Assembly: GCA_910592205.1 (NCBI GenBank)
Contig: CAJVPJ010000127.1
Span: 1 to 42,033 of the forward strand
Length of the DNA stretch: 42,033 nt
Direction: 5' to 3'
DNA from: Paraglomus occultum
Lineage: Eukaryota; Glomeromycota; Glomeromycetes; Paraglomerales; Paraglomeraceae
Shown here: positions 6,797 to 37,312 of the stretch, piece after piece
Layout of the letters: each line of letters opens with the position of its first letter
Position numbering within the stretch: the first letter of the stretch is position 1
The notes under the pieces: model-generated
Database searches by the model: none
Told to the model about the DNA's origin: nothing
What the model saw: the letters and a program-made list of their open reading frames with translations, nothing else
Position numbers and translations under genes: made by a program

Positions 6797-8733
6797 CTAC
6801 CGAAAAGCAGAAATCCTCTCTTCCTCTCGGAATCTCTTCTTGACCAAATCGACAACGCGTTTATCATATACCTCCTCAGGCGACGCACTAATCTTTTCAT
6901 GTGCGGCTGCTTCCTTTTTCGTCATCACGACGCAATTTTGAGGAGACAGCGGTTGATTCCGATCCCATCTTATGAGAGTTAGTTTGTCTATAGCGGAAGA
7001 AACGGCACTGCGACCACGCCATATTTCTTCAAATATATAGCTTACATCGCGTTGGTCTAGTGGTATTGTGCTTTTAAAATTATAGGATTAATATGTTAAA
7101 TTAATAATTAATATTTATAATTTTTAACTTAACTCTGCTATCGTTATTGTTGTTATTCGTTCTCCGTTCTACGTTCTCCTATTCATACTCACTCGTTCCC
7201 GAACAACTTCTTTTCCCTCACTATTAACTCACGGTGTAATCGTGCGTAAAGTGCGTCACGATGTTTATTGGGCAACGGTTCAATTTCATATCCTGTAATG
7301 CTTGTTATAGTATGTGTTGCAATAGTCATGCCGAACATTGCAGGAATTGTTCCTAAAAAATAAATCGATACAGTAGTTCTTAGTAATGTCAGTTGAATAA
7401 AAGACCTTTGTTAAGGTTCGTTACTTACCTAATACAGGAAGTATTCTTGATCTGAAATCAGGTAACGTCGCATATTCATCTGCTGTCTCAACGCGTGTTT
7501 CATCTGTCAAAAAGCGAACGATTATGTAAACAACGTGATACAACAGCTAATTAAATATAATATCGCGTGTTACACACCGAGTGGGAGCAGCTTGATGTTT
7601 GGTTTCTCGGTGGAGTAAACGACAGTGATCCCCGATCCTATGCCAAGTTTGTGAAGTCTTCGGCGAACAGCCCTTGCAAGAGGGTCCTCTGTGAGAGCAT
7701 GTTTATAGGCGTTGCAGATTAAACGCGATGTACACATCTGTCCAACATCAACTCTTTACATACCTTTAGTCTCACTAATATCACTTATTTGAATGCGTGA
7801 CGGATCTGCTTTTGCTCCTGCACCCATAGAACTCACGATCTACAATAATGAATGAATAAGGATATTTTATTATAATATTTTTACTCATTAAACATCATTG
7901 TATTTTCTCCTCAGTTATTCATGTTACCTACCGGAAGCTTTTTATCGTAGCAATATTTTAACAAATGCAGCTTAGTGTCAATGTTGTCAATGGCATCGAT
8001 GATAAAATCCGGGTTTCCTAATTAAAAAACACCTGACGAGTTGTACGTGAATAAAGACGACAACGATAATATGATAGTAACCATGACTAAACCAAATCAG
8101 CTTCGTTGCACGCGTATTTACAAGTAACAACGCAAACACTAATAAATTCTCACCGCTTAACAGCCGTTCAGCATTTTCTTCTTCGAACAAATCAACAACA
8201 GCCTCAACCTTAGCCCAAGGCACAATGTTTTTCGCATGCTTTTGCAGACAGACAACCTTTGGAGTCCCAACATCAGCATGCGTAGCAACCGAATGTCTGT
8301 TTAAACTGCTCAAAGTCACTTGATCAAAATCAATCAGCCTGATCTTCTCCAAGCCCGACCTCAACAACATTATCGCTGCCCATGATCCAACACCTCCGGC
8401 GCCAACTATGATTACGAATGATTTACGTAGCTTATCGATACCTTCCTCCCCTATAAAGGCAATGTTGCGTGCGAGTTGTTCTTTGATTAGAGATTCGTCA
8501 TATTTTGTAGGGAGGATGGGATGTCCGGTAATTGAATGTGTGGATGCGACGGCAGGCGGTGGAAGAGACGAAAGTTCTTCCTTTAAAGCGCGTGTGCGAG
8601 AATTCCGTTGTGACGATTGGTAAGCATAAATTGATACAGCAGTCAGCAGAGAGGCCGCAAGAGCTGTGACGGTTAGGTGAGACGTAGGGTGGTGGATGAT
8701 AGTGGAGAGGATCGATTGAGATGATGACGACAT
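6797..8733 (-). CDS. TCD1: tRNA threonylcarbamoyladenosine dehydratase (TCD1/TCD2 family)
   Basis: Fungal Tcd proteins are ThiF/E1-like ATP-dependent enzymes that cyclise t6A at tRNA position 37 to ct6A; in yeast they sit on the mitochondrial outer membrane. Seven exons: 8154-8733, 8017-7932, 7839-7764, 7688-7578, 7503-7429, 7352-7193 and 7070-6797, giving 453 residues (yeast about 430-450). Residues 20-40 form a single membrane segment. The nucleotide-binding loop VGAGGVGSW is at 110-118, followed by LIDFDQVTLSSLNRH and NPDFIIDAIDN. Further family blocks are SSMGAGAKADPSR, LPVLGTIPAMFG and the fungal C-terminal region (YIFEEIWRGRS, PLSPQNCVVMTKKEA, LVKKRFREEERIS). An upstream in-frame ATG at 8776-8778 would add 15 residues. 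Two paralogues exist in yeast, so the exact orthologue is uncertain. Confidence 0.9.
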
Positions 8734-11049
8734 GGATATTTTAAACCGTCTGTCACTCTTTTCTATTTTCCAATTCATATTTAAATCGTAAAAAGTTTTG
8801 GTGTAACCTAATTACGTCATCTTTGCTAATCATCGGAATATCAACATCACTAATATAATACTAATAACGATAAAGAACAAAATTCCCTTTTGTCTTGTTG
8901 TAGTACAAGTATTAGCGAAGGGTTATCTTATTGGTTGTCAAAACCATATTAGAATACGTGCATTGGGCAAATTGGGCAGGGGCTACCGAGAGAAAGAACT
9001 GGCTTCGTTCTTCCTTTGTAATGGTTACTGCATTGTAGTGATAGGTATTACTAGTTCTGGCTTTATATCGTCATCATGCCAAGAAATAGAATAATGTAAT
9101 CAAGTATGACAAGCAAGTGTAAAGGATGTTATTATTTGTCTAATATGGTAATACTACGTCACCCCAAAATTCTTCCCATTATTAATTGCAATCCTTACAA
9201 TCACATATCACGCGAACACACTGAATTATCAAGACGATATACGATACGTCTTATACATCAGGTGTGCGTTTTATTGGTACGAAGATGGTGCTAGATATTT
9301 CTCTGTATTTTAAATTGATCCGCAAGCTAAACTACTCGTTATACGCCAACTGAAATTTTGGGGATGTTTATTCTGTTCATAAAATAGATTTCATTAATTT
9401 TGGGATCGATAATCTAGCGATTTGCAGGTTCATAATAGTTTTAAGTTTTCAAAGTTTCAATACGGGCCTAAGACTTTGGGTGTCGTATGTGAAAATGTTT
9501 TATTACCTTTGTCTCAATAAAGATAAATGATGGTAGGACCATTTATGCAATCACATTCTATGGCCAGCGCGCATGGTAAGAAAGTTATACCCTTGTTCAG
9601 GTCAACAGCCAATATATTTAACGCTATGGCCTCTCTCTCTCAAGGTTACAAAAGCCCTGGAAAAGGAACGATGAGTGTGTTTGGAATCGAGGGATAAAGA
9701 TCCGAGGTTTGAGAGAAAGGGTAAACGAAAAATAAGGTTGGATTCATAAGAGTAAGAAACAAGGAAATGGCAAGGGTCGAATTCAATGTAAATAGCACAA
9801 TCTGTATCGAATATTTGAAACGGTTAATGTGCGACCTCATGTTCCGAGACTATATCGAGAAATGAGTTATAATCGTTATTAAACAAGATAAAGAAGTGGA
9901 GGCAAAATTAATAAACATCGATTAACATAACCGTTAGTCCGATATAGTTTAGTGTTTATTAAAGACAGACAAACATGCCCGAGCTTACTAAACGATTTAT
10001 CTTTTGAGCTCAAGAACTCGGTGCTTTTTGCGCTACGTCAAATTTGGAAGTAAACAATTTCGTCGCTTCGAACGTCATATCTTTAATTACATCGACAGAG
10101 ATCTTCCAGATACTAATAATAGATCGGTTGGTTCTTTATTACAAATATGGTGTCCTTTTTCAATCAACTGACTAGACAAAATCGGAAGCGCTTGTAAAAG
10201 AATCTTCTCTTTCGAATGAAAGAGGCCGAACCAGTGAGAGACTTTAGAGATCATTTAACGAAGCTCTGCAAGTTGCAAGTTAGTTGTGTGACATTACGTC
10301 GGCACTTATCGAGAGAATATGCAGGTTGCTATCGGCGTTAGGGATAGTGTCTTGCAACATGGCATGACTTCTGTTCGAAATTGAGACTATATTATTTATT
10401 CAACAATGACTCTTAATTATAATACGAACTTCAGACAGGTAAGTTCCAAATATGCATAACGAACGTAACGGTGACATAAACAAATTGGGCATCAATTACG
10501 CTTGAAATGTTTCAGAAGTTGCCGGTTGTACGTTGAAACAAATATAGACTAATGCCAATTCGGGAAGACGAATGCTTAATTTTCAATTAATGTAAATGTA
10601 TACGACTGTCCAATGCTCATTGATCTGGCAAGCTGTCGTGGCTGCGCACGAATGAAACAGTAAAACATTACTATATTCGCTTAGTCTATAATACATTCCA
10701 ACAAAATAATAATTAATTCTCTAGTCATTCATTCCGGCTTTTCGTTTCGTAAAGGTTGCATATTACCTCTTTGGGTGCCACAAAGCCCATTTTATTAACG
10801 TCTTTTATCTGCAACTCTATATATATATATATATCTAACTATTTTGACCTTTTATTTTTTTTTAATCCTTCTTTCCTTAAAGTTGAAAACAACCACACTC
10901 ATTACCTTTCCACAATCTTTCGTGTCCTCTCAATCTTTTGAGGAATCCTCGGTTTATAAATACCGTTTACTGGTGTTAAATATACTAGCAGTTAAACTCC
11001 ATATTCTGCTTGGTGTAATAACCGCTGCTATTATCTATTTGCTGGTCGA
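8734..11049. other. Long intergenic stretch, shared promoter region
   Basis: The flanking genes are divergent (TCD minus, RhoGEF plus). No ORF over 70 codons carries a recognisable motif and no tRNA-like structure was found. A short AT dinucleotide run lies at about 10818-10833. The last 200 bases before the RhoGEF ATG contain a CT-rich segment (about 10840-10940) and the TATA-like GTTTATAAATA near 10951-10961. Confidence 0.45.
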
Positions 11050-16576: not shown

Positions 16577-19500
16577 TTAATCTATTATTATCAAGTCTTC
16601 TATTTCTTCAGGATATATCTCTTCAGCATTTGCCTCTTCAGCATAAGTATTTATCTCTTCAGTAGTTGTCTCTTCAATATTTGTTTCCTTTAACAATGCC
16701 TCCCCTAATTGTATCCCTAGAGCAAATGCTACATTTCTTGGTACTGAATTCCCAACTATTTTGAGCTGGTCAATGATTGAGCCACACACAATATCTGAAT
16801 CCAAAAATCCTATATATTTTGTCAGACAATTAGTCAAAAAAAAATTTTCTTAAAATTTAAAAAAAATATATACATGTTAGGATTCTTTTTACCCTGTGCT
16901 CTGGCTGCTTCACGAACACTCAGTGTTCGTGGTTCCAAGTAGTGTACAACCTCAGCTGTAAGACTATCAATCCCTTTGTAATCAAACCGAGTTTCAGGTT
17001 AGCTCGCAGCCATACAAACAGTACCAACACATCTTATAATTAAACACAGTACACACTCATCATGGTTATAATAGTTGGAAACACATAATCTGCTGTTACT
17101 CGCTGACATGGTGCTTTTCCTGTTCGAATCTCTGGTCGATTATATTTTTCTTCAAATAATTTCACTTGCAAGTGTGGGGGTACTAAACCAAGTTCTCTTG
17201 CTTTGAAATAGTTGGCTTTAGAAGTATCCACTGGTATTAATTTTAGAAGTTCAGTGTATTTACTTTTCATGTATTCTACTCTGTGATCAGGATACCTAGG
17301 ATACCAAAATATCCCTGTGTCTAAAGATGGTAAATCGCCTATTAAATCTTTTACTGTTAACATAGGCAAGCTTGCATATTTGTCTTCAGGAAGACCAGTT
17401 AACCTACATATATGTAGATGTGTGTGAGAGTTTAATTCAAAGACAGATTTCTAGACTGAAGTTCATGCAATATGAGACTCACCGATCACCATTTGGTAGA
17501 TTCAGCGTATATTTATGAAAACGTCTCCCTTGGAACCTGTGTGATGGTTGTGGCAACTGTGGTAGCTGCTCCCCTGCAGCTAGGACGTGGGCATTACATT
17601 AGAGTACTTATTAAATATAGCAGTATGCTGAGGACACCACACACACAACATAATAATTACCAGCACCCCACATAAATACACGGATTCTCTCTTGTGCACC
17701 ACCAATATGAGCTGCACAAACGAGACCAAAACGGATTTGATACTTCATTTCTAATAGACAAGCAATTAACCGTGGAAATATTGCCTGGCCTTTTTGTATT
17801 TGATTAGGTGTGAATTTCCTGTCAAGCTCATTAATGCTAAATGTAACTAAAATAACCAATATACCTCCATAGCCAATCAATGTAGGAACGTTTTCTAACA
17901 ACAAAAATCTCGGCTTATAATAATCAACAAACGAAGCAAAAGAAGCTATTAGGGAATTGTTTGCTTGAGCTCGAGGGCTGTTTGGGTACAAGTTCAAACG
18001 CGAGAATCCTTGGCATGGAGAGCCTGCTAATATTATATCCACTTCGCCCTATAATAGTAGAATAATGTAAATCATCAAATATCAGTTGGAGACAAATGCT
18101 AAGATGTTTGAAATTGAAAAAATTCTCTCTCAACAAACTGCTAGTGAGCTGTGTAAAATCCTGACCTTCTTTGGCGCGGCCGTACAACCTTCACCAAGAA
18201 TCGCATCTACCAATACAACGTTTACACTAGCGTTCATTATGGTTATGTCGTCGTGTTGGACATTCTGTTTGTAAGTTTTACATGCTGCCTCAGCATTGTC
18301 TATGGCCCTGCGTGGTACGGTAATGATTCAGCGTCACCGGTTTAGACGGGATTAAAATATCAATTTAACAATTTTATAATAATTACCATTTACAGGAGAC
18401 AAAACCAGAGTCTTCGACTCCCCGACCTAATGATCCACCACCACAAAATAGATCGAGTCCTTTTAACTTCTTAAAAGTTTCAATCTTTTCATAATAAGGT
18501 GGAAAATGCTCTTGGGACTCGAATAGTTTGATAAAACTAATTTCATTTGTGTCAACGTCATATTCCCTACAAAAGAAAAACTACATAAACGATTATCAAT
18601 GAACTCTATGTGGTCATAAGACACATTCACTAAAGACGTTCTTACATGTTCTCCAGCTCCACGATGCCTCAGGTTAATTGGAAGTTCGTTCATTGTAATC
18701 ATGCTACTTCGTTGTATAAACTCTACATGACATTTTCGGATTACCTGCTCGAAGGCAGTAAACTCGAATGAATAATTCGACCACAACAATTCATTAATGA
18801 TATCTCCGGATTTTCGTTCATAAATTTCCCATGGCCTAAAGAATCTCCTTAAAATAGCTACTTCGTCTTCCGTGTTGATTTCCTCAATGTAACAGACTGT
18901 ACAGATCTCATCTTGGCAGACATCAAGTTTGAGAGTGATACAATCGCCAACTTGATATTTTGATACGAATTCATCGAATACACATTTTAATGGTGACAAA
19001 CAGCCACACAGACGACTGCCAGAAGCAGATCGAAGCATCTCTGGCTTAAATGTAAGAAAAGACCCATCGTTTATATCATACATCATTCGACAGAAGAAGC
19101 TAGTTTCGAGATCTGGAGAACGTGAAGAGAATATTAGTAGACAATCGAATTCATCTTCAACAATAAACAATTGTGTATGCATTTATATACCTGGAGAGCT
19201 ATCTGCTCCAAAAAGAACGTTTACTTTTCGCTTGATCGTAGATATCGACTGAGGCGTATGACATTCACAATGATACGCAAGAAATAATTCTTTCTCTGCT
19301 TGGGGGTGACAGTCTACGTCCACTTGATGAAGAAATGTCTGTCTTCGCGTATATAACCATACAAGATTGAAAGCGCCGTCATCAATCGATGTGCGCTTCA
19401 ATTCAGTAATCAGACTCAAAAATGTAATTTCAAAATATCCCGTTTTAATACTGTGAATTACTCAAAGGCTTGAAAGAATAAATCTAACCATTTCGACTCT

Positions 19501-23466: not shown

Positions 23467-24676
23467 CTACTTGATCATTCGTGTTTCCTTGTTATTAATC
23501 CTACTCTGAACCCACTTTGGATTGGGCACAAGCACACATTTAGTTGCAGAACATAATGGGACAACCGCGTTTTTGTCGACCTTGTCAAAGAACGTCAAAC
23601 CCGACATTCTCTCGACATCTTCAACTGCCACTACATACTGCTCTAACGGAATGTCGTCTGGTATTGGCTCGTTTGGCAGAACGAACGCACCCATCGCCAA
23701 AGTGTTTTCTGATCGTTTGGCTAGTATGACTTTGAAAAAGCTAGTTGGAACTGCAACACCTGATGCTCCTATAACTTCGTACTTCACGTATTTCTTTCCA
23801 TTCTCTTCCTGTGGGAGATAGAGCGGTCCAGTATATACATAAACATCTGTAAACCCTTCGTTTTTAATAAGGCGACGACAGAATTCTTCCAAATGCGCCC
23901 AGTCTTTTCATTGTAATAGTGTTTCAGTAATGTGAATTTTAAGAGAAACAAATGCGAATAAAAACAAACAGTTGTTTACATACAAGCTCTGTTAAAGCCC
24001 TCTCCAACTTGCGGGGCAATATTCGTTAGATAGAAAGTTTCAGAAAGAGCGTCTTGAGAAAACTTGACGTCAGCAGCAGGAGCCATATGACCGCGATCAT
24101 ATCCAGAACGAAAATAATCGGTTAATTTTGCTCTGAATTTATATGGAATAGCAGGATCTTCTTGAAATATTGATTTGCTACGGTCTACTCCTTCCTCTTG
24201 TTTAAGAGTTGTCGCCGTAAGGTGCTCAGCAATCTAGACGTATCCCATAATGAAAATAATAATAACATGGAGACGACGGGTAATTAATATGTTAACACAA
24301 ATTAGATTAGACGCTGGTCTAATCAAATCACACCCGACTTACCCATATCGGATTCCTTAATTGCCTACTATATGTGCCCACATATCCGCTTCTGAAGATT
24401 GCGTCATTAACGGGTCCTGTTTATGGACACGAACATCATGCCTCCGTCTGTATAGCGCTATGGTTTATAGTTAAAACATATCATACCGGGGTGTCCATAT
24501 GCAAGTATATCTTCAGCTACTTTTCGTAACTTGGGACTCACAGTAACAGGCGTCGCCGTTGGGGGTGGCAATGCAACACTTGTCAGTTTGCTCTTTTGAT
24601 ATTGATCATATCCGAATATACCCAATGTAGTTCCGCCAAGTAATACGAGTGCACGTTCTACATTTCTACGTAACAT
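23467..24676 (-). CDS. NUC1: Mitochondrial endonuclease G / NUC1
   Basis: A DNA/RNA non-specific beta-beta-alpha-metal nuclease of the mitochondrial inner membrane or intermembrane space, known for mitochondrial DNA processing and cell death. Four exons: 24487-24676, 24343-24416, 23984-24233 and 23467-23903, giving 316 residues (yeast Nuc1 is 329). The start MLRRNVERALVLLGG with the hydrophobic run ALVLLGGTTLGIFGYDQY looks like a targeting and anchor sequence. Conserved parts are ILAYGHPGPVNDAIFRSGYV, the catalytic DRGHMAPAAD (His about 137), YLTNIAPQ and N-R-A-Y-W-A-H-L-E, followed by YVYTGPLYLP and VPTSFFKVIL. All expected active-site residues are present, so the enzyme should be active. 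Confidence 0.93.
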
Positions 24677-28785: not shown

Positions 28786-30080
28786 GTGAATATAGCATAT
28801 CTTATTTTTTTATTTCGAAATAAACAAGTTATTCTATTATGTAAAGCTCGAATTATGATCGAAAAGATTTAGACCAATCAGAATGAGATTCGATCTCGTT
28901 GATCGCTTGATTGTAAACATACTTTCAATTCACTTGGAGACGGTAATAAACAAACTATTGATATTAATATTAATATGTAGATCATTTTACATTGTTTTAG
29001 GGCGCCACAAATCTCACGTGAAGAGGGCAGGCAGAGCTTATGTTACAATTATATTAGTATATAATTGGTATTAATACGTAGACTTATCAATTCACCACAT
29101 GATGGAATAATTGATATTTCAAGGAGAAAAAAGACATCTTCATATTTTAATTCGTCAAAATGCGCTATTAGGACTGCCTAACATAGAAGTCGCGATTTAG
29201 AGGGACGTACAATAGAGAGAACGAATTTCCAGGCAAAAACGAAGAGCCTAATACTAATATAGTATAATCAAAAGGGCGGACTCCACATGATCATCTTTAT
29301 TGGGTATAGTATGCATTGAGTGACGTACAACAATGAAAACGACGATGCTTGCGTTTGCAATATATGAATCGATTTTTTGTCCCCAATTAGTAGCTCTGGA
29401 AAGCTACGAACAAGAATGAAGCTGTTACTGAACTCAAACGCAACTGACCAAATTACAACTCAAGTAAGCAAAAAATATATCTGTGTTAGCTTGGTGCAGA
29501 ATATCGATCCTGTAGTCAAGCTTGTTATAGGCTGTGTATGATACTGTGTGTTCACTTAATTTTTTTTCCTGAAGACTATGAAGATGACTTTAATGTAGTC
29601 ATTATTACAGTAGCAGATCCTTATTTGGATGTTTGTGTAATTTTGATAATTGATGATCTTCAGCCTATCATAATCAGCCAATGATTAGGTTTTATCAAAC
29701 TGTCGCAAAAACCCGCCTAACTGTCATTGACAGTTAAAAACAATGTATTTAAACGATAGTTATCCAACGTTTCCAATAGCCATGCTATTTGGCAACTGTG
29801 GTTTCACGAAGGATACAATTATCGAAAAACAAAATGATAGAGGAAGAAATATGCGCGTACGTAAACTTTTTGTTTACCATGGTCTCATTGGAACTTGCTA
29901 TATAATAGAACATGATTTTCTTCACTTGACAGTGATAACGCGCCAATTCATTCATCACACCCATGTCCAACGTCGGGTCGATTAGAGACACTAGCAACTG
30001 AATATGGTCCATCCCTCACCCCTCCAACACGCAGTCTTACTGACCCTATCATTGCAGGCGAAGCTTTCGTGAACAAAATT
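28786..30080. other. Intergenic stretch upstream of the Cdc48N-TPR gene
   Basis: Mostly AT-rich with stops in all frames. A minor upstream exon of the next gene may lie here: the frame is open from about 29910 to its proposed ATG, and a pyrimidine-rich acceptor (ccctatcattgcag) ends near 30058. No other gene is seen. Confidence 0.4.
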
Positions 30081-33000
30081 ATGCCAAACCTCGGTTATGC
30101 GATTAAAGACTTTAAATGTAATCCGGAAAGAACCTTACTGTGCGAGAAACCAATTTCAAATGAGCTTATCGTTGAAGATACCATTAGGGATGATAATTCT
30201 TTAATGATACTTTCTCCAGCAGCTATGAAGAAATTACGGTTGTATTGTGGTGCAACCGCCCTAATAGAAGGAAGGAAGGGATACAACACAATCCTTATTG
30301 TATGGGCCGATGAAGGTTGCGAAGATGTTAAAGTTAGAATTAATCAAGGTATCCATTAATTTGTATAATTGGTTGTCAAAGTCAATTATAGTTAGTGTTC
30401 TTCCATGATGTTAACTTTAGCCGGTTGTGCATTTAGTTGTTAGAACCAATCTCCGTGTGCGTTTGGGTGATGTTGTGTCAATTCAACTCTTTTCTGATAT
30501 TAAGGACGGCCGGCGCGTCCAATTGCTCCCAATTGACAATACAGTTGAGGGAGTAATGGGAGACTTTTTTGAACCCCATCTCAAACAATACTTTCAGAAT
30601 ACGTATCGACCAGTTCGAGAAGGCGACGTGTTCTCTATTAAATATGGGGGACTTTCTATGAAATTCAAGGTTTTGGAAACTGATCCACCAAACTATTGTA
30701 TTGTAAGTAGCTACAATTTGACTTTTTACTATGAATTATGGGCTCATTTATTGCTACGTTACAGGTTACGAGCGATACACAGATATGCTGTGATGGAAAC
30801 CCGGTCAAATGTGAACACGATAAAACCATTGAATCATTAGACAAGGATGCAGATGCTTTCACATTGGGAAGAAGGGCGATCGTTTATTACAATTTTAATC
30901 AGTATGATAGTGCATTAAATTGCCTCAACGAATCTTTGGTGATCGAACCCCGGGACGCATGGACGCTAAGTAGAAAGGGAGAAGTCTATCGTCTACTTGG
31001 TCAGTATGATAACGCACTGGAATGTCTCAATAAATCATTGGAGATTGAGCCGGATAATACGTTTGCTTTGAAAGTAAGGGGTGAAGTCCGTCACTTGCTT
31101 AATTTTTATGAGGATGCATTGGATGATCTTAACACATCATTGGATATTGAACCGCACGATTCATGGACGTTGAACAGGAGAGGGGAGGTCTATTTCCTAC
31201 TTCACCAGTATGGTAATGCATTGAATGACTTTAACAAATTATTGGAGCTCGAACCAGACGACGTATGGTTATTGAGCAGAAGAGGAGAAATTTATCGATT
31301 GCTTAATCAGTATGACAATGCGTTTACCGATCTCAACAAGTCATTAGAAATTGAACCAAATAATGCATCCGCACTGAATAGCAGAGGGATTGCTTATTAC
31401 AACATCAATCAGTTTGACAATGCATTGAACGATTTCAAAAAATCATTAGGAATTGAGCCGAATAACGCGTTTGTATTGGGGTCAATAGGGGATGTCTATC
31501 GCCTTCTTAAACAGTATGATGCCGCGTTGAACTATTTTAATAAATCATTGGAGATTAAGTCAAAAGACGCATTCATATTGAAAGGAAGGAGTGATGTCTA
31601 TTTCCTGCTCGATCAGCATGACAACGCATTGATTGATCTCAGCAAATCGTTGGAGATTGAGCCAAATGATATATGGGCTTTGAGAAGACGGGGAGATATT
31701 TATTGCCTGCTTGATCAGTACGAGGCTGCATTAAATGATTTTAACAAAGCATTGCGGATCGAACCGAATAATGCTCGGTTGTTGAGCAAAAGGGGAGAAG
31801 TCTATAGAAGTTTAAACAATTATGACAATGCATTAATTGATTTCGACAAATCACTGGAAATTAGACCAAATAATGCATGGACATTGAGCAAAAGGGGATT
31901 GGTATATTACAGACTTAATCAGTATGAGGACGCATTAAACGATTTTAGCAAGTCATTGAAAATTGAACCGAACGATGCATGTACATTAAGATCCAGAGGA
32001 GGTGTATATTACATGATTGATCAGTATGACAATGCGCTGAAAGATCTTGGTAAATCTTTGGAACTTGAACCAAACAACTCGTTTGCATTGAGAAGAAGGG
32101 GGGATGTTTATATCATGTGTACTCAGTATAGCAATGCGCTGAAAGACTTTGATAAATTGTTAGAGATAGAACCAAATAACGCATTTGCATTGAGAGGGGA
32201 AGGGTATGTCTATCGCATGCTTAAGAAGCGTAAGCATGCATTGAGAAGTCTGGACCAATCATTAAATATTGAACCGAATAATGCATTTGCATTGAGAACA
32301 AGAGGAGACGTTTATCGGATGCTTAAGGAGTTTGACAAGGCATTAAATGATCTTAATAAGTCATTGATGATTGAACCGAATAATGCAGATGCGTTGAAGT
32401 CTAGAGGAGATGTATATCGCATGCTTCATCAATATGACAATGCAATAGATGATTTCAACAAATCATTAAGTTGCGATCCGAGGGATGCGTGGACATTGGG
32501 TAGAAGAGGAGACGTCTATCGTCTGCTTAATCGCTATCATGAAGCACTTGACGATTTCAATGAATCATTGCGGATCGAATGCAATGATGCATGGGTGTTA
32601 AGCAAAAGAGGAACTGCTTACTATAGCATTAATAAATTTGAGGACGCTTTGAAAGATCTTGATATTTCGCTGAAGCTTAATCCTAAAGATGCATGGGCAT
32701 TAAAAATAAGAGGTGACATCTATTGTTCGTATGGGAAGTACAACAAGGCGTTGAGAGATCTCAACAAATCATTAGAGATTAATCCGGATGACGTATTTGC
32801 ATTGAGAGTAAGAGAATATGTTTACTACTTGCTTGATTCGGGTGACAATGGAGCAGATAAGTTTGAAATAAACCGTGCATGGGAATGGAATAAAGGAGGA
32901 GAACTCTATGGCATACACGGTCAGTCTAGCAATGCATCGAGCGATCCTAACATGAAGCCAAATTATGAACGTGGCAGCACGCCTCGAGTGTTATCGCCAT

Positions 33001-33932
33001 ATCGTTCACAACGTAACAGCGCATTCGAGACAGAGACGAATAAGTCGTGGATGTCTAATAAAAGTGGAATTAATTATCAGCATAATGAACACAGTAATGA
33101 TGACAATGATTATGATGGTGGTGATGCTGATGATGGTAATGATAACGACAGTGCTACTTTGTTAGATGTTCTCAATAGATTATTGGAGGTTGAACCATAT
33201 AATACAATCGCGTTAAAGTTAAGGAGTAATACATACTTCCTGCTTAACGAGTATGAAAGAGCATTAAATGATCTCAACAAGTTACTGTTACTCGAACCAG
33301 ACGATGCGAATTCATTAAGCAGAGCAGGAGAAATCCATCGTATACTAGGACATTATGACGATGCATTGGATGACCTCAGCGAATCGTTGAAGATTGAGCC
33401 GAATAACGCGTTTGCACTGAGCAGAAGGGGAGAGGTCTATCGCATGCTTAAGCAATATGACCATGCGCTGAATGATCTCAATAAATCATTGATAATCGAG
33501 CCCGAAAATGCGTGGATATTGAAAATAAGAGGTAACATATTTTGCATGCTTAATCAGCACAGCAGGGCATTAAACGATCTCAATAAATCACTGGATATCG
33601 AACCAACCGATGCATGGGCGTTAAGCAGAAGAGGAGAAGTCTACTTCATGCTCAAGCAATATTACAGAGCGTTGCATGATCTCGATAAATCGTTGAACAT
33701 TGAACCAGCCAATGCATGGGCATTAAAAGTAAGGGATAACGTCTATCGTCAGCTTAGTAAGGATGATTATGCGTTTACCAATCACAATAAACAACAATTA
33801 ACTGAACTCGACGATACACGTAAAAAGGGAGATGTCTATCGCCTGCTTCGGCTGCAGAACAATAAATTGAATTCTGTACTAAAAACCAAAAGAACGTCTA
33901 TTAAGAAATTACTTAGAAGAATAACGCGTTAA
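30081..33932 (+). CDS. Cdc48/p97 N-domain fused to about 26 TPR repeats (no AAA ATPase)
   Basis: Three exons: 30081-30348, 30437-30702 and 30765-33932, giving 1233 residues. Residues about 25-195 are a Cdc48-type N domain. The double-psi barrel part has NELIVEDTIRDDNSLMILS, ATALIEGRKGYNTILIVW and VVRTNLRVRLGDVVSIQ, the last formed across intron 1. The second part has PIDNTVEGVMGDFF, TYRPVREGDVFSIKYGG and DTQICCDGNPVK. In true Cdc48 the D1 ATPase ring would start next. Here TPRs begin at about residue 208: 20 units, an Asp/Asn-rich linker, then 6 more. No Walker A or B motif exists. In Cdc48 the N domain recruits cofactors such as Ufd1-Npl4 and p47, and TPRs bind partner proteins. An adaptor or competitor role is therefore inferred. 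The ATG chosen is the first in the domain frame; an extra upstream exon is possible. Confidence 0.88.
30852..33812 (+). repeat. 102-bp coding tandem repeat array (34-residue TPR units)
   Basis: Units run without gaps from 30852 to about 32890 (20 units, the last degenerate) and from 33201 to about 33812 (6 units, the last degenerate). The consensus begins N-A-F-A-L-R-R-R-G-D-V-Y and ends D-L-N-K-S-L-E-I-E-P-N, with canonical TPR positions (G/A8, Y11, A20, P32). Most units are alike over their whole length. Between blocks lies a low-complexity segment rich in GAT/AAT codons (about 33085-33160). Confidence 0.92.
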
Positions 33933-34481
33933 GCCTTATCAAGACAGTTATAGACATTCAATTGCAGTATGCACTGATAGCAAAGAATGGTAAATTTGCG
34001 GCACTAAGGAAAATAAGGATAAGGTTTATGCGATATTTTGTGTCATGAACCAAATAATCTAAAAGGGACGAAAGTTGTAGACCTGGGTTGCCGCTTGAAT
34101 GGAATAATTGCGCCTTTGTTTTTCATTCCTACATCACAACTTACTAATTTATGGTTCCAGAGTTTCTTTCATTTTATATACAAAATAAATCTCATCGAAC
34201 ACTGTAACAAGGCAATGTATTACACGTCGTACTTTTATTTTTGTCTCTCATATAAGAAAAGACAAGCATGAATTAAATCTATTACAAATGTACGAAAATA
34301 GGTGAAGGGCACCTTCAATTACAACAACCAAATAACCATCTACTAGCAAGTGGTTTATTCAATTGTATGGTCACGATATCCGTCTATATGTCCCAGTTTA
34401 ATACCGTCGATCTACAAATTCATCATTTTTCAATTTAGAAAATAATTGATTCGGTTTATAATCACAACAACCCCCTTACAA
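33933..34481. other. Intergenic stretch between convergent genes
   Basis: Contains the 3' flanks of the TPR fusion gene and the CPSF6-like gene. No ORF with a recognisable motif. Confidence 0.45.
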
Positions 34482-37312
34482 CTAACCTCGTCCATCTTCA
34501 TCTTCCCGTTGTCTTTTCATTCCATGGCCCCCGCCTTCATAACCTCTTTTGATATAATAACAATGAAATTAAAGAAAAGAAGATATGGTAATGTCAAGTA
34601 ACGTTATTCTTACCTTTGGCCACGCGGTGCAACCGGCACGTCCTCGTTCACAAATCCTTGATCAAAGAAGGCAGGATTAAAATGCGGAGCCGGGTATCCA
34701 GGTTGATGAGGACCTAAGAAAACACGCGACGGCGAATGAAAACATAATTACTCATCAATTAATCCTGACGTTGATTTGCAAAATGCTCCAGTCAGGCTTC
34801 CAGTCCCGACTCTTTAATACGGTCTTGAATATCATTTTTCATACCAACCTCCCATCATATTTCTTCTGACAACTCCCTGCCCACCACGCATTCCCATCAT
34901 TCCTCCTCTTAACAGGGGATTCATCCCAAAAGACCCATCTGTTCCAAAACCATTCATATATCCAGCTGCGCGGCCAGGAAATGCAGCATATGGTCCCATA
35001 GGTGGCGCAAAGAAATCTCGCGGACCAGCCGGGATTGGGTTCCCTCTGAATGCATTGCCTCGATGGAAATCGAAATTAGGACGTATAATAGGCGGACGAA
35101 GTAATGGAGTTGACGTTGCGGATTGGTTCGATGTATTTGTAGGTGGTGTTGAGCGGTGAGACGACTGTTGTTGGCGAGCGGATTTGGACGGAGGTTCTAT
35201 TTACAAGGGAAGAGAAAACGGTTTGTCAATCGATGAAGCAAACTGGACGGTGTAGAGGGTAAATAGAGCCCTCGCTAAGGATATTTACCTTTAGGTACTG
35301 TCTTGAATGGATTTCCGTTTGCAGAGCTGGTAAAGTTGACGAGAACCTTCTTATCCGTAATCTCTCTATGGGGATAGACAAGCGTTATTATGAGACGTAT
35401 GTCGCATGCAGACAACCAAACAAATGCTAGATTCTTAATTGCGTTCCAACGTACGTCATCTCTAATCGAGTCTTTACCAATGCTGCAGCTTCTGATGAAG
35501 TGAACTCTACGTATGCGACACTACAAAGTGGTGAATGATAGAATAATTAATATGCAGTAATCGTTTCTAGTAATTGTCTCAAGATACAATTGAGTGGATG
35601 ACTTTCACCGGTTCGGGCCAAGTCATCTAAAGTGTTATGAATCTCATTGTTCGTTTTCAATAATGTCTATCTTACCCTCGTGATTTGCCGTTGACTTTAT
35701 GTTCATAGAATGTGATCTCCTTCAACTCTGATGTGACTCCAGCATCGCGCGCAACTTGCCGAAGATCTTCATCAGTTGTCCACTAGCGTCCAAAGGATTA
35801 ACGAGTAAAATTATTAGTATATGAATAATATCTGTGGGGAAGTGGGATGAATAATTCCTTGTCGGCTCTCTCTTACGACAATCCTCCATTCATCCAATCC
35901 TAAACAAAAGATTCTACTGTTCTATTTACCCAATTGAGTTCACCAATATACAAGGCATTTGTTGCATTGACGACTGGTTTCTTCTCTGGCTGTGGGCTTG
36001 GCGATCGCTGTGTATTCGATGATTTCTCCCGAGATTCGTATGTTGTGTCTTCTTGCGTCTCTGTTAAATCTATCAATATAAGATGCATATGTACAAAAGA
36101 AATCACCATAGCAATTTATACTAGATAATACGCTGGTACAAGACAACAAGTTTAAATAACAATTGATACCTTCATGACCATTCGTTCTTTTCTCTTCTTC
36201 CGTCTTGGTAAATATATCCTGTTTCATGGTTTGTGATAGTATATAATGATTTATGTGTTTATCGTTGAATTCGAGGTGGAAACAAGGTTATATTATGACG
36301 AACGTAAAAACAGGCAATCGAAGGGAAGTCGTCCGTTATCGAATCGTTTACGTAAATATATATTCGTTGGTTGTTTTTCAATATGAAAAACATGTTATTT
36401 ATGTTATAAGAAGAGGAAGAGAGGAATAAATGGAATCACTGTAAGTTCCTTAAGCTAATAAACCAAATCTCAACTCTTTATTTCCTTCCTCTTTGTTGTT
36501 TCTTCCCAGATGTCTTATACAGCTCTTTTGAATACTGTTGTTGTGTACATGCAGAGTAAATTACTCATTATATTAACGTAATTAGTAGTATTGTGGCTAT
36601 GAAAATAGACTCTGGGAAGATTTAATCAAGCGAGTGGAGCGTACATGAGAGCATACCACGAATACAACAAATATCTGTTGATCAGTTACTTTCCACCGAA
36701 GTATATCTCTCCACAATACGAGGACGTCTGCATAGACGTTTCTCGTATTGTGCAACTAATCTTCTCCTCATGATCTTAATGTCCGCTTCCATCTGACAAC
36801 TCCTTCTCAAAGTAGCATGACTTGGCACTATTCACTATTCCACCCATTTCCTCTTCCAATAATCACAGAAAGACGTCATCAGACAACTTGTTATAACATA
36901 ATGGATTGTATATACGAACCTTTTCAACTTCTCCAAAGTCAGCAAACAGATCGTCTTCGTTTATTTCAAGATCGTCGGGTCTATCGGAAGTACCAACATT
37001 ATTGCCCTCTCGCCGACGTTTAGCCGGACGAGTACCATCTTCATCGCCTGGGTTTTCGTCGTATAAATCATCGTGCTTGAGAAAATAATATAAAGTTAGA
37101 TGGAAAATTTAATTTTGGGATACGAGGCATGTAAGTATATTCACGTGTATTTACAATAATATTATACCATTCAAACAGAATATCAATATAAGCAGCAGTA
37201 CATGGGAAACCATCTCTTTTTCCAATCTGACCAATAACCCAATACTCACAGTCTCGTCGGTACCCAAGAACGTATCATCGCCATAAATGTCAAATGGATC
37301 TTCATCAGTCAT
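34482..37312 (-). CDS. CPSF6: CPSF6-like (CFIm68) pre-mRNA cleavage factor subunit
   Basis: CFIm68 binds the NUDT21 subunit and helps select polyadenylation sites in the nucleus. Ten exons: 37250-37312, 36920-37075, 36170-36218, 35930-36069, 35676-35782, 35455-35520, 35289-35365, 34849-35196, 34614-34713 and 34482-34545, giving 389 residues with all phases closing. The acidic N-terminus ([28 protein letters not shown]) matches the family. The RRM (about 125-205) has [40 protein letters not shown] and KKVLVNF. The rest is Pro/Gly/Met-rich ([28 protein letters not shown]). The end is [15 protein letters not shown], without the long RS domain of the animal protein. Intron 2 is 701 nt, unusually long here, with a weak GTTCGT donor. 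A CPSF7-like identity is also possible. Confidence 0.87.

Follow-up and report, generated by a model that had tools for sequence, protein, structure and literature searches.

A Cdc48 N domain joined to a long tetratricopeptide-repeat array in Paraglomus occultum: a candidate lineage-specific adaptor without the ATPase

The N domain of Cdc48 (p97, VCP) is normally part of a hexameric motor. Most Cdc48 cofactors bind at this domain (PMC5389986). A predicted gene of the fungus Paraglomus occultum raises the question of what such a domain can do, and where it came from, when a long array of tetratricopeptide repeats (TPRs) follows it and the motor does not. The gene lies in a 42,033-nucleotide stretch (the window; G+C content 35-40%) that makes up positions 1 to 42,033 of contig CAJVPJ010000127.1, here called C127, in assembly GCA_910592205.1 (32.3 Mb, 1408 contigs). 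For comparison, PMC9453076 tabulates a G+C content of 36.8% for P. occultum, 25.1-29.3% for five other Glomeromycotina, 37.5% for Rhizopus and 35.8% for Phycomyces, so that base composition by itself is not diagnostic. We put a probability of roughly 55% on the reading that it encodes a lineage-specific adaptor, in which the Cdc48 N domain would be one of several heads carried by an expanded TPR scaffold.

With three introns removed, the predicted product has 1290 amino acids and consists of a leader, a Cdc48 N domain, a short linker, 26 TPRs and a basic tail. The N domain, corresponding to p97 residues 21-195, occupies 30150-30824 on the forward strand and is spread over exons 2-4 in an ungapped alignment. 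The alignment of spliced residues 75-261 with residues 19-205 of Arabidopsis CDC48A has no gap (6hd3_A, E 3.4e-61), and both Pfam families exceed their cut-offs (CDC48_N, 53.3 bits against 35.1; CDC48_2, 46.8 bits against 22.4), so the complete two-lobe domain described in the initial annotation is borne out. It is 58% identical to the N domain of the host's own Cdc48 (101 of 175 positions), and it retains 66 of the positions that are at least 90% conserved among the Cdc48 proteins aligned (n=96). A structure predicted for 30439-30702, the 88-residue exon of the Nc lobe, reached a pLDDT (predicted local distance difference test score) of 73, and all 50 Protein Data Bank matches shown were p97/Cdc48 chains; Cdc48 sequences were in the alignment from which the model was built, so this match was expected and adds little. 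For exon 4, a model computed without any aligned sequences was uninformative (pLDDT 30).

The motor appears to be absent, as had been proposed. In both strands of 29000-36000 the sole match to the Walker A pattern [GA]xxxxGK[ST] is the string ALKDLGKS, a chance occurrence inside a TPR unit, and no AAA family was found among the four Pfam families (E <= 1) of the first 272 amino acids or, for exon 4, among the best 25 of 43. The D1 and D2 AAA modules with their Walker motifs, which characterise Cdc48/p97 and on which formation of a hexamer would depend, were thus not found in the fusion, nor were a kinase or a BTB domain among the same four families. The Ufd1 N-terminal domain is likewise not supported, UFD1_N2 scoring 19 bits under a cut-off of 37 and UFD1_N1 giving no match. 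Separate Pfam scans of the stretches outside the TPRs, namely the spacer within the array, the tail and codons 1-29 of exon 4, gave no match.

All parts of the gene lie on the forward strand. Exon 1 (29834-29856, 23 bp) is predicted to hold the start codon, an in-frame ATG, and the first leader residues, and it ends at a GTACGT donor in phase 2, as does exon 1 of the host CDC48. Intron 1 (29857-29932, 76 bp) is absent from the earlier model; it is GT-AG, and its acceptor, followed by TGA and also in phase 2, agrees with that of the host CDC48 and, for the acceptor only, with that of a paralogue on contig C761. Exon 2 (29933-30348) carries the leader and, by Pfam and alignment, the first part of the N domain (the Nn lobe); its leader motif EYGPSLTPPT resembles EYGPSITSPT of the paralogue, with EYGPS[L/I]T[P/S]PT common to both. 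Because the donor, the phase and the leader motif match CDC48 or the paralogue, the start at 30081 given by the initial annotation is probably internal, and the protein would be 1290 rather than 1234 residues long. The two introns named there hold up, both being GT-AG, preserving the frame and agreeing in position and phase with full-length CDC48: intron 2 (30349-30436, 88 bp; phase 1) is at the same place in all three genes, as is intron 3 (30703-30764, 62 bp; phase 0), whose border with exon 3, ACTATTGTATT/GTAAGTA, is identical in C127 and the host CDC48. Between them, exon 3 (30437-30702) completes the Nn lobe and encodes the greater part of the Nc lobe (CDC48_2, 38.8 bits at 30556-30711).

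Exon 4 (30765-33932) is open for 1055 codons from 30765 and encodes the end of the N domain, the linker, the TPR array (TPR_1, E 5.8e-155), the tail and the stop. It opens with 20 codons of Cdc48-homologous sequence; the domain continues in frame into the TPRs at the N-D1 linker, and the join lies within the exon, not at its border. A 34-residue profile, trained on the same protein, returns the 26 units first counted, as 20 contiguous units (30852-32891), a spacer of 103 residues, part of it acidic and rich in D and N, in which no unit scored (32892-33200) and six further units (33201-33812). The unit consensus is DAWALSRRGEVYRLLNQYDNALNDLNKSLEIEPN, and the 20th unit is degenerate in its second half. 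The basic tail KTKRTSIKKLLRRITR (33882-33929) is similar to KPKRKSIKKFINKIIH of the paralogue and unlike every other array tail listed. A reading of the array as an Hsp70/Hsp90 co-chaperone was tried and rejected: in such proteins the first helix has a conserved glycine followed by the carboxylate-clamp asparagine, and this Gly-Asn pair is present in just one of the 26 units.

Matches to the N domain occur at three places in the genome, namely C127, C761 and C82. The gene on C82 is a separate full-length CDC48, whose eight exons encode 819 amino acids and include both Walker A motifs; its product is 89% identical to that of Ambispora and 84-86% identical to the other nine best matches printed, mostly from Mortierella relatives. 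C761 carries a 752-residue paralogue of the fusion with a similar leader, an N domain, 13 TPRs and a tail, of which the 13 TPRs stand in a last exon of 526 codons beyond the same intron. A TGA reported within its N-domain match falls in the following intron. The two fusions are 43% identical over 756 columns, and nine residues are common to both, missing in C82 and carried by no more than 7% of the other sequences; C761 retains 52 of the highly conserved positions counted above.

Could two adjacent genes, or an assembly artefact, have been read as one? The one-gene model rests on sequence prediction, and intron 3 holds an ATG in frame with exon 4. Against this stand the same architecture on C761, the sharing of intron 3 with CDC48, and the fact that a single exon encodes the last N-domain stretch, the linker and the TPRs, and we regard this explanation as very improbable. 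Its assembly variant, a chimera at 30703-30765 as the initial annotation had contemplated, is ruled out by the occurrence of the architecture on a second contig.

The N domain itself is most likely, from its sequence, a copy of the CDC48 of the same lineage, taken together with its introns and joined to a member of an expanded family of TPR arrays, since introns 1-3 of the fusion coincide with CDC48 introns in position and phase (the intron 1 donor of C761 being uncertain) and residues private to the host Cdc48 recur in the fusions. The retained introns also indicate that the source was genomic DNA and not a retrocopy, and a retroposed origin was rejected on that ground. DNA similarity between 28800-34000 and the C82 locus is confined, at E 0.01, to 30165-30709. 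Four residues of the host N domain, R112, Q115, Q140 and D149 (L043, G000:C82:4295-4951), occur in none of 72 other Cdc48 proteins, these being the 73 N-region matches less P0001, which has two N domains; the same 72 sequences served for the other residue counts given here. C127 has three of the four and C761 two, each residue being present in at least one fusion, so that the host shares 5 of 8 opportunities compared with 11 of 228 for the 72 others (Fisher 3.7e-5); many of the latter are near copies from Mortierella relatives, which leaves those sequences with fewer private residues. In a tree of 26 sequences picked by hand from the protein-search matches plus the three host genes, C127, C761 and C82 are split from all others with support 90/94. 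The copying most likely postdates the split of this lineage from Ambispora, a point that the tree alone does not settle, and it appears likely that the fusion happened once and was then duplicated, giving the long form with 26 TPRs and the short one with 13.

Purifying selection appears to act on the gene. Proportions of nonsynonymous and synonymous differences (pN/pS) in the N domain are 0.21/0.57 between C127 and C82 and 0.28/0.62 between C761 and C82; in the TPR part they are 0.31/0.71 between the two fusions. These values bear on the idea that the fusion is a largely or wholly functionless chimera on its way to becoming a pseudogene. The searches made returned no copy outside this genome and the branches are long, as that idea would have it; there are nevertheless two intact copies, whose last exons stay open for 1055 and 526 codons and whose introns are GT-AG, and pN lies well below pS, which together make it improbable.

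What the head may bind can be approached through its contact residues. Positions 35, 38, 52-55, 70, 72 and 109 of the inter-lobe cleft, like the N-D1 positions, were taken as known Cdc48 sites. The set of SHP contacts follows PMC5042407, and positions 37, 56, 110, 143 and 141-145 follow PMC5389986. At the SHP site C127 is identical to the host Cdc48 in 8 of 10 positions (P>= 0.13) and C761 in 6 of 10; in the cleft the figures are 9 of 17 (P<= 0.43) and 10 of 17, respectively. The trend to SHP retention is weak, non-significant and absent in C761, and three SHP positions (Q115, Q140 and Y183) are already unusual in the host Cdc48. Tyr110 has become Asp in C127 and Tyr143 has become Cys in C761, and the FRGD loop, presumably a cofactor-binding element of the cleft, reads YCGA in the former and VDKD in the latter. 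Tyr110 and Tyr143 are called key for UBX/UBXL binding in PMC5389986.

In the initial annotation the fusion was suggested to bridge Cdc48 cofactors (Ufd1-Npl4, p47 and other UBX or VCP-interacting-motif proteins) to clients, or to compete with Cdc48 for them. An N domain that is whole and conserved in its core, with 8 of 10 SHP positions in C127, would suit such a role, and the proposed partners exist, since exons of UFD1, NPL4 and UBX genes were found in the same genome. Yet Tyr110 is lost in C127, Tyr143 in C761 and the FRGD loop in both, and a head outside the hexamer would lack the avidity that bipartite cofactors can use; on balance we think this role unlikely. A further option is that the head took a different ligand and may read ubiquitin or another protein directly, as the UT3 domain of Ufd1 does, which binds ubiquitins (PMC13356908). 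The core is kept, both binding surfaces have diverged about as fast as the domain overall, and the UFD1_N2 score mentioned above might be taken as a faint resemblance; the sequence is nonetheless that of a Cdc48 N domain and not of Ufd1, and we think a different ligand slightly less likely than competition or bridging. Since 8 of the 10 SHP positions in C127 equal those of the host Cdc48, a weak trend, the ligand would more likely read the Nc/SHP face than need an intact FRGD/Tyr110/Tyr143 cleft. On weak evidence, then, a ligand of the SHP type or a changed one may be ranked above full competition with Cdc48.

The array offers a second line of argument for an adaptor whose head is exchangeable. 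Similar TPR arrays are present on at least 34 contigs of the genome, a lower bound because 44 of 156 candidates were scored. A motif of the kinase C-lobe precedes the array in 10 of the 17 loci fetched, a Pfam kinase was recognised in 6 of the 10 heads scanned out of these 17, and of 29 other array loci, fetched with shorter flanks, partly covering the same genes and including C761, 15 contain a looser kinase-lobe motif. The named relatives that top the list of array matches are Glomeromycotina proteins, several of them with kinase or BTB domains, and both fusions have the long array of 34-residue TPRs that marks the head-TPR proteins of that group (26 units in C127, 13 in C761). Expanded kinase, BTB and Sel1-type families have been described in these fungi (PMC8647823, PMC9453076). 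Because sister arrays carry kinase or other heads, the Cdc48 N domain can be read as one head among several. The TPRs were originally said to stand in place of the AAA rings, which is apt from the CDC48 side; from the TPR side, it is the N domain that occupies the place of the kinase lobe in many sister arrays.

Two other array loci deserve mention. At L049 (G000:C1341:2400-9500) an HTH_ABP1_N helix-turn-helix stands ahead of the array in place of a kinase lobe, and at L060 (G000:C795:10500-16517) a RING/U-box-like cysteine stretch, seen by eye and without a Pfam match, precedes it.

In such an adaptor the N domain would act as a docking head and the TPR superhelix would hold another protein, so that the gene would put a Cdc48-N ligand on the scaffold as its sister genes put a kinase on it. 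Of the ATPase-free adaptor first proposed, the ATPase-free Cdc48-N/TPR architecture in one predicted gene stands, and from this architecture we infer the adaptor role.

Several observations weigh against the reading as a whole. The single mRNA of the C127 fusion is a prediction from the DNA, and in C761 the first exon is uncertain, with one extra leader intron relative to C127. Private residues are also shared by P0071 (3 of 36) and Ambispora P0002 (2 of 12), the highest values in that control. Tree support of 90/94 is under the starred level of the tool, and C127 and C761 are both long branches; the best tree does not pair them, their enforced pairing is not rejected (approximately unbiased (AU) test, 0.36), and neither is a pairing of C127 with Ambispora (AU 0.17). 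Synonymous change is near saturation (pS 0.79 between C127 and C761), and part of the constraint on the N domain belongs to the Cdc48 branch. Cofactor-contact residues are kept neither more nor less than the rest of the domain, and most kinase heads were recognised by motif alone.

How isolated the architecture is can be judged from the searches. The N region of C127, compared with proteins of 710-2258 amino acids, gave 73 matches, all with an N domain and a Walker A string, and no protein with both CDC48_N and a TPR family was among the 120 matches listed out of 355 in a further search, some of the 120 having incomplete Pfam strings. A profile of the N domain found it in 118 of 192 proteins. 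The Walker A string sought is missing from two of the 118, P0139 and P0160, and of these P0139 is still listed with an AAA family; in none of the 20 of the 192 that passed a strict count of TPR motifs was the N domain present. The N region of C761 returned no matches at all, not even Cdc48, a silence that is weak evidence because the search was insensitive. Outside this genome, the combination of Cdc48 N and TPRs without AAA was thus absent from the matches listed, in line with the novelty first claimed for it, and no published description of it appeared among the titles and abstracts listed, the claim being no stronger than those lists.

Two natural genes with the head and without the motor, apparently under selection, provide a control for which cofactors need the hexamer. 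They also suggest that TPR arrays, an expanded family in these fungi, capture domains from housekeeping genes, which bears on the role of such families. More speculatively, and in our view improbably, the fungus could use the N domain, freed from the motor, as a tunable decoy on a receptor-like TPR scaffold with exchangeable heads (kinase, Cdc48 N and others), the two fusions titrating Cdc48 partners or luring foreign proteins directed at Cdc48; an arbuscular mycorrhizal lineage would then have made Cdc48 regulation one of its means of signalling.

Elsewhere in the window, the reverse strand carries an exon for the N-terminal part of a DNA photolyase (123-1046), a ThiF-family (E1-like) exon (7990-8811), a partial match to C-5 cytosine DNA methylases that is presumably one exon of a larger gene (17614-18048) and an exon for a DNA/RNA non-specific endonuclease (Endonuclease_NS; 23470-23907). 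On the forward strand, near the contig end, 41113-41610 resembles the N-terminal part of an HTH/Tc3-type transposase, with weak Pfam matches that all, except PAX, fall below cut-off.

Several known systems resemble the fusion in part. It shares with the host Cdc48/p97/VCP the two-lobe N domain, the three introns and host-private residues; that protein has D1, D2 and the Walker motifs, whereas the fusion has a TPR array instead. The UT3 domain of Ufd1 is an ATPase-free domain with the Cdc48-N fold. Ufd1 is thus ATPase-free like the fusion, but it belongs to another sequence family, and a separate UFD1 exon is present in the genome. P0160, a metagenomic protein of 607 amino acids, combines ubiquitin-like repeats with a Cdc48 N domain and has no AAA; as in C127, the Cdc48 N domain stands without the ATPase on a foreign scaffold, although that scaffold is a different one, and a common origin of the two was rejected (AU p 0.00026). 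Plant nucleotide-binding leucine-rich repeat proteins with integrated domains (PMC4759884) likewise carry an extra domain on a repeat protein of an expanded family; they possess an NB-ARC domain, which was not seen in the C127 fusion, and an immune role here would be speculation. Finally, the kinase-TPR and BTB-TPR proteins of Glomeromycotina, with the kinase after the TPRs in P0074 (Rhizophagus clarus) and P0075 (Gigaspora rosea) and the BTB domain before them in P0081 (Gigaspora rosea), are built from the same kind of 34-residue units, and in C127 the head that such units carry is the N domain of Cdc48.

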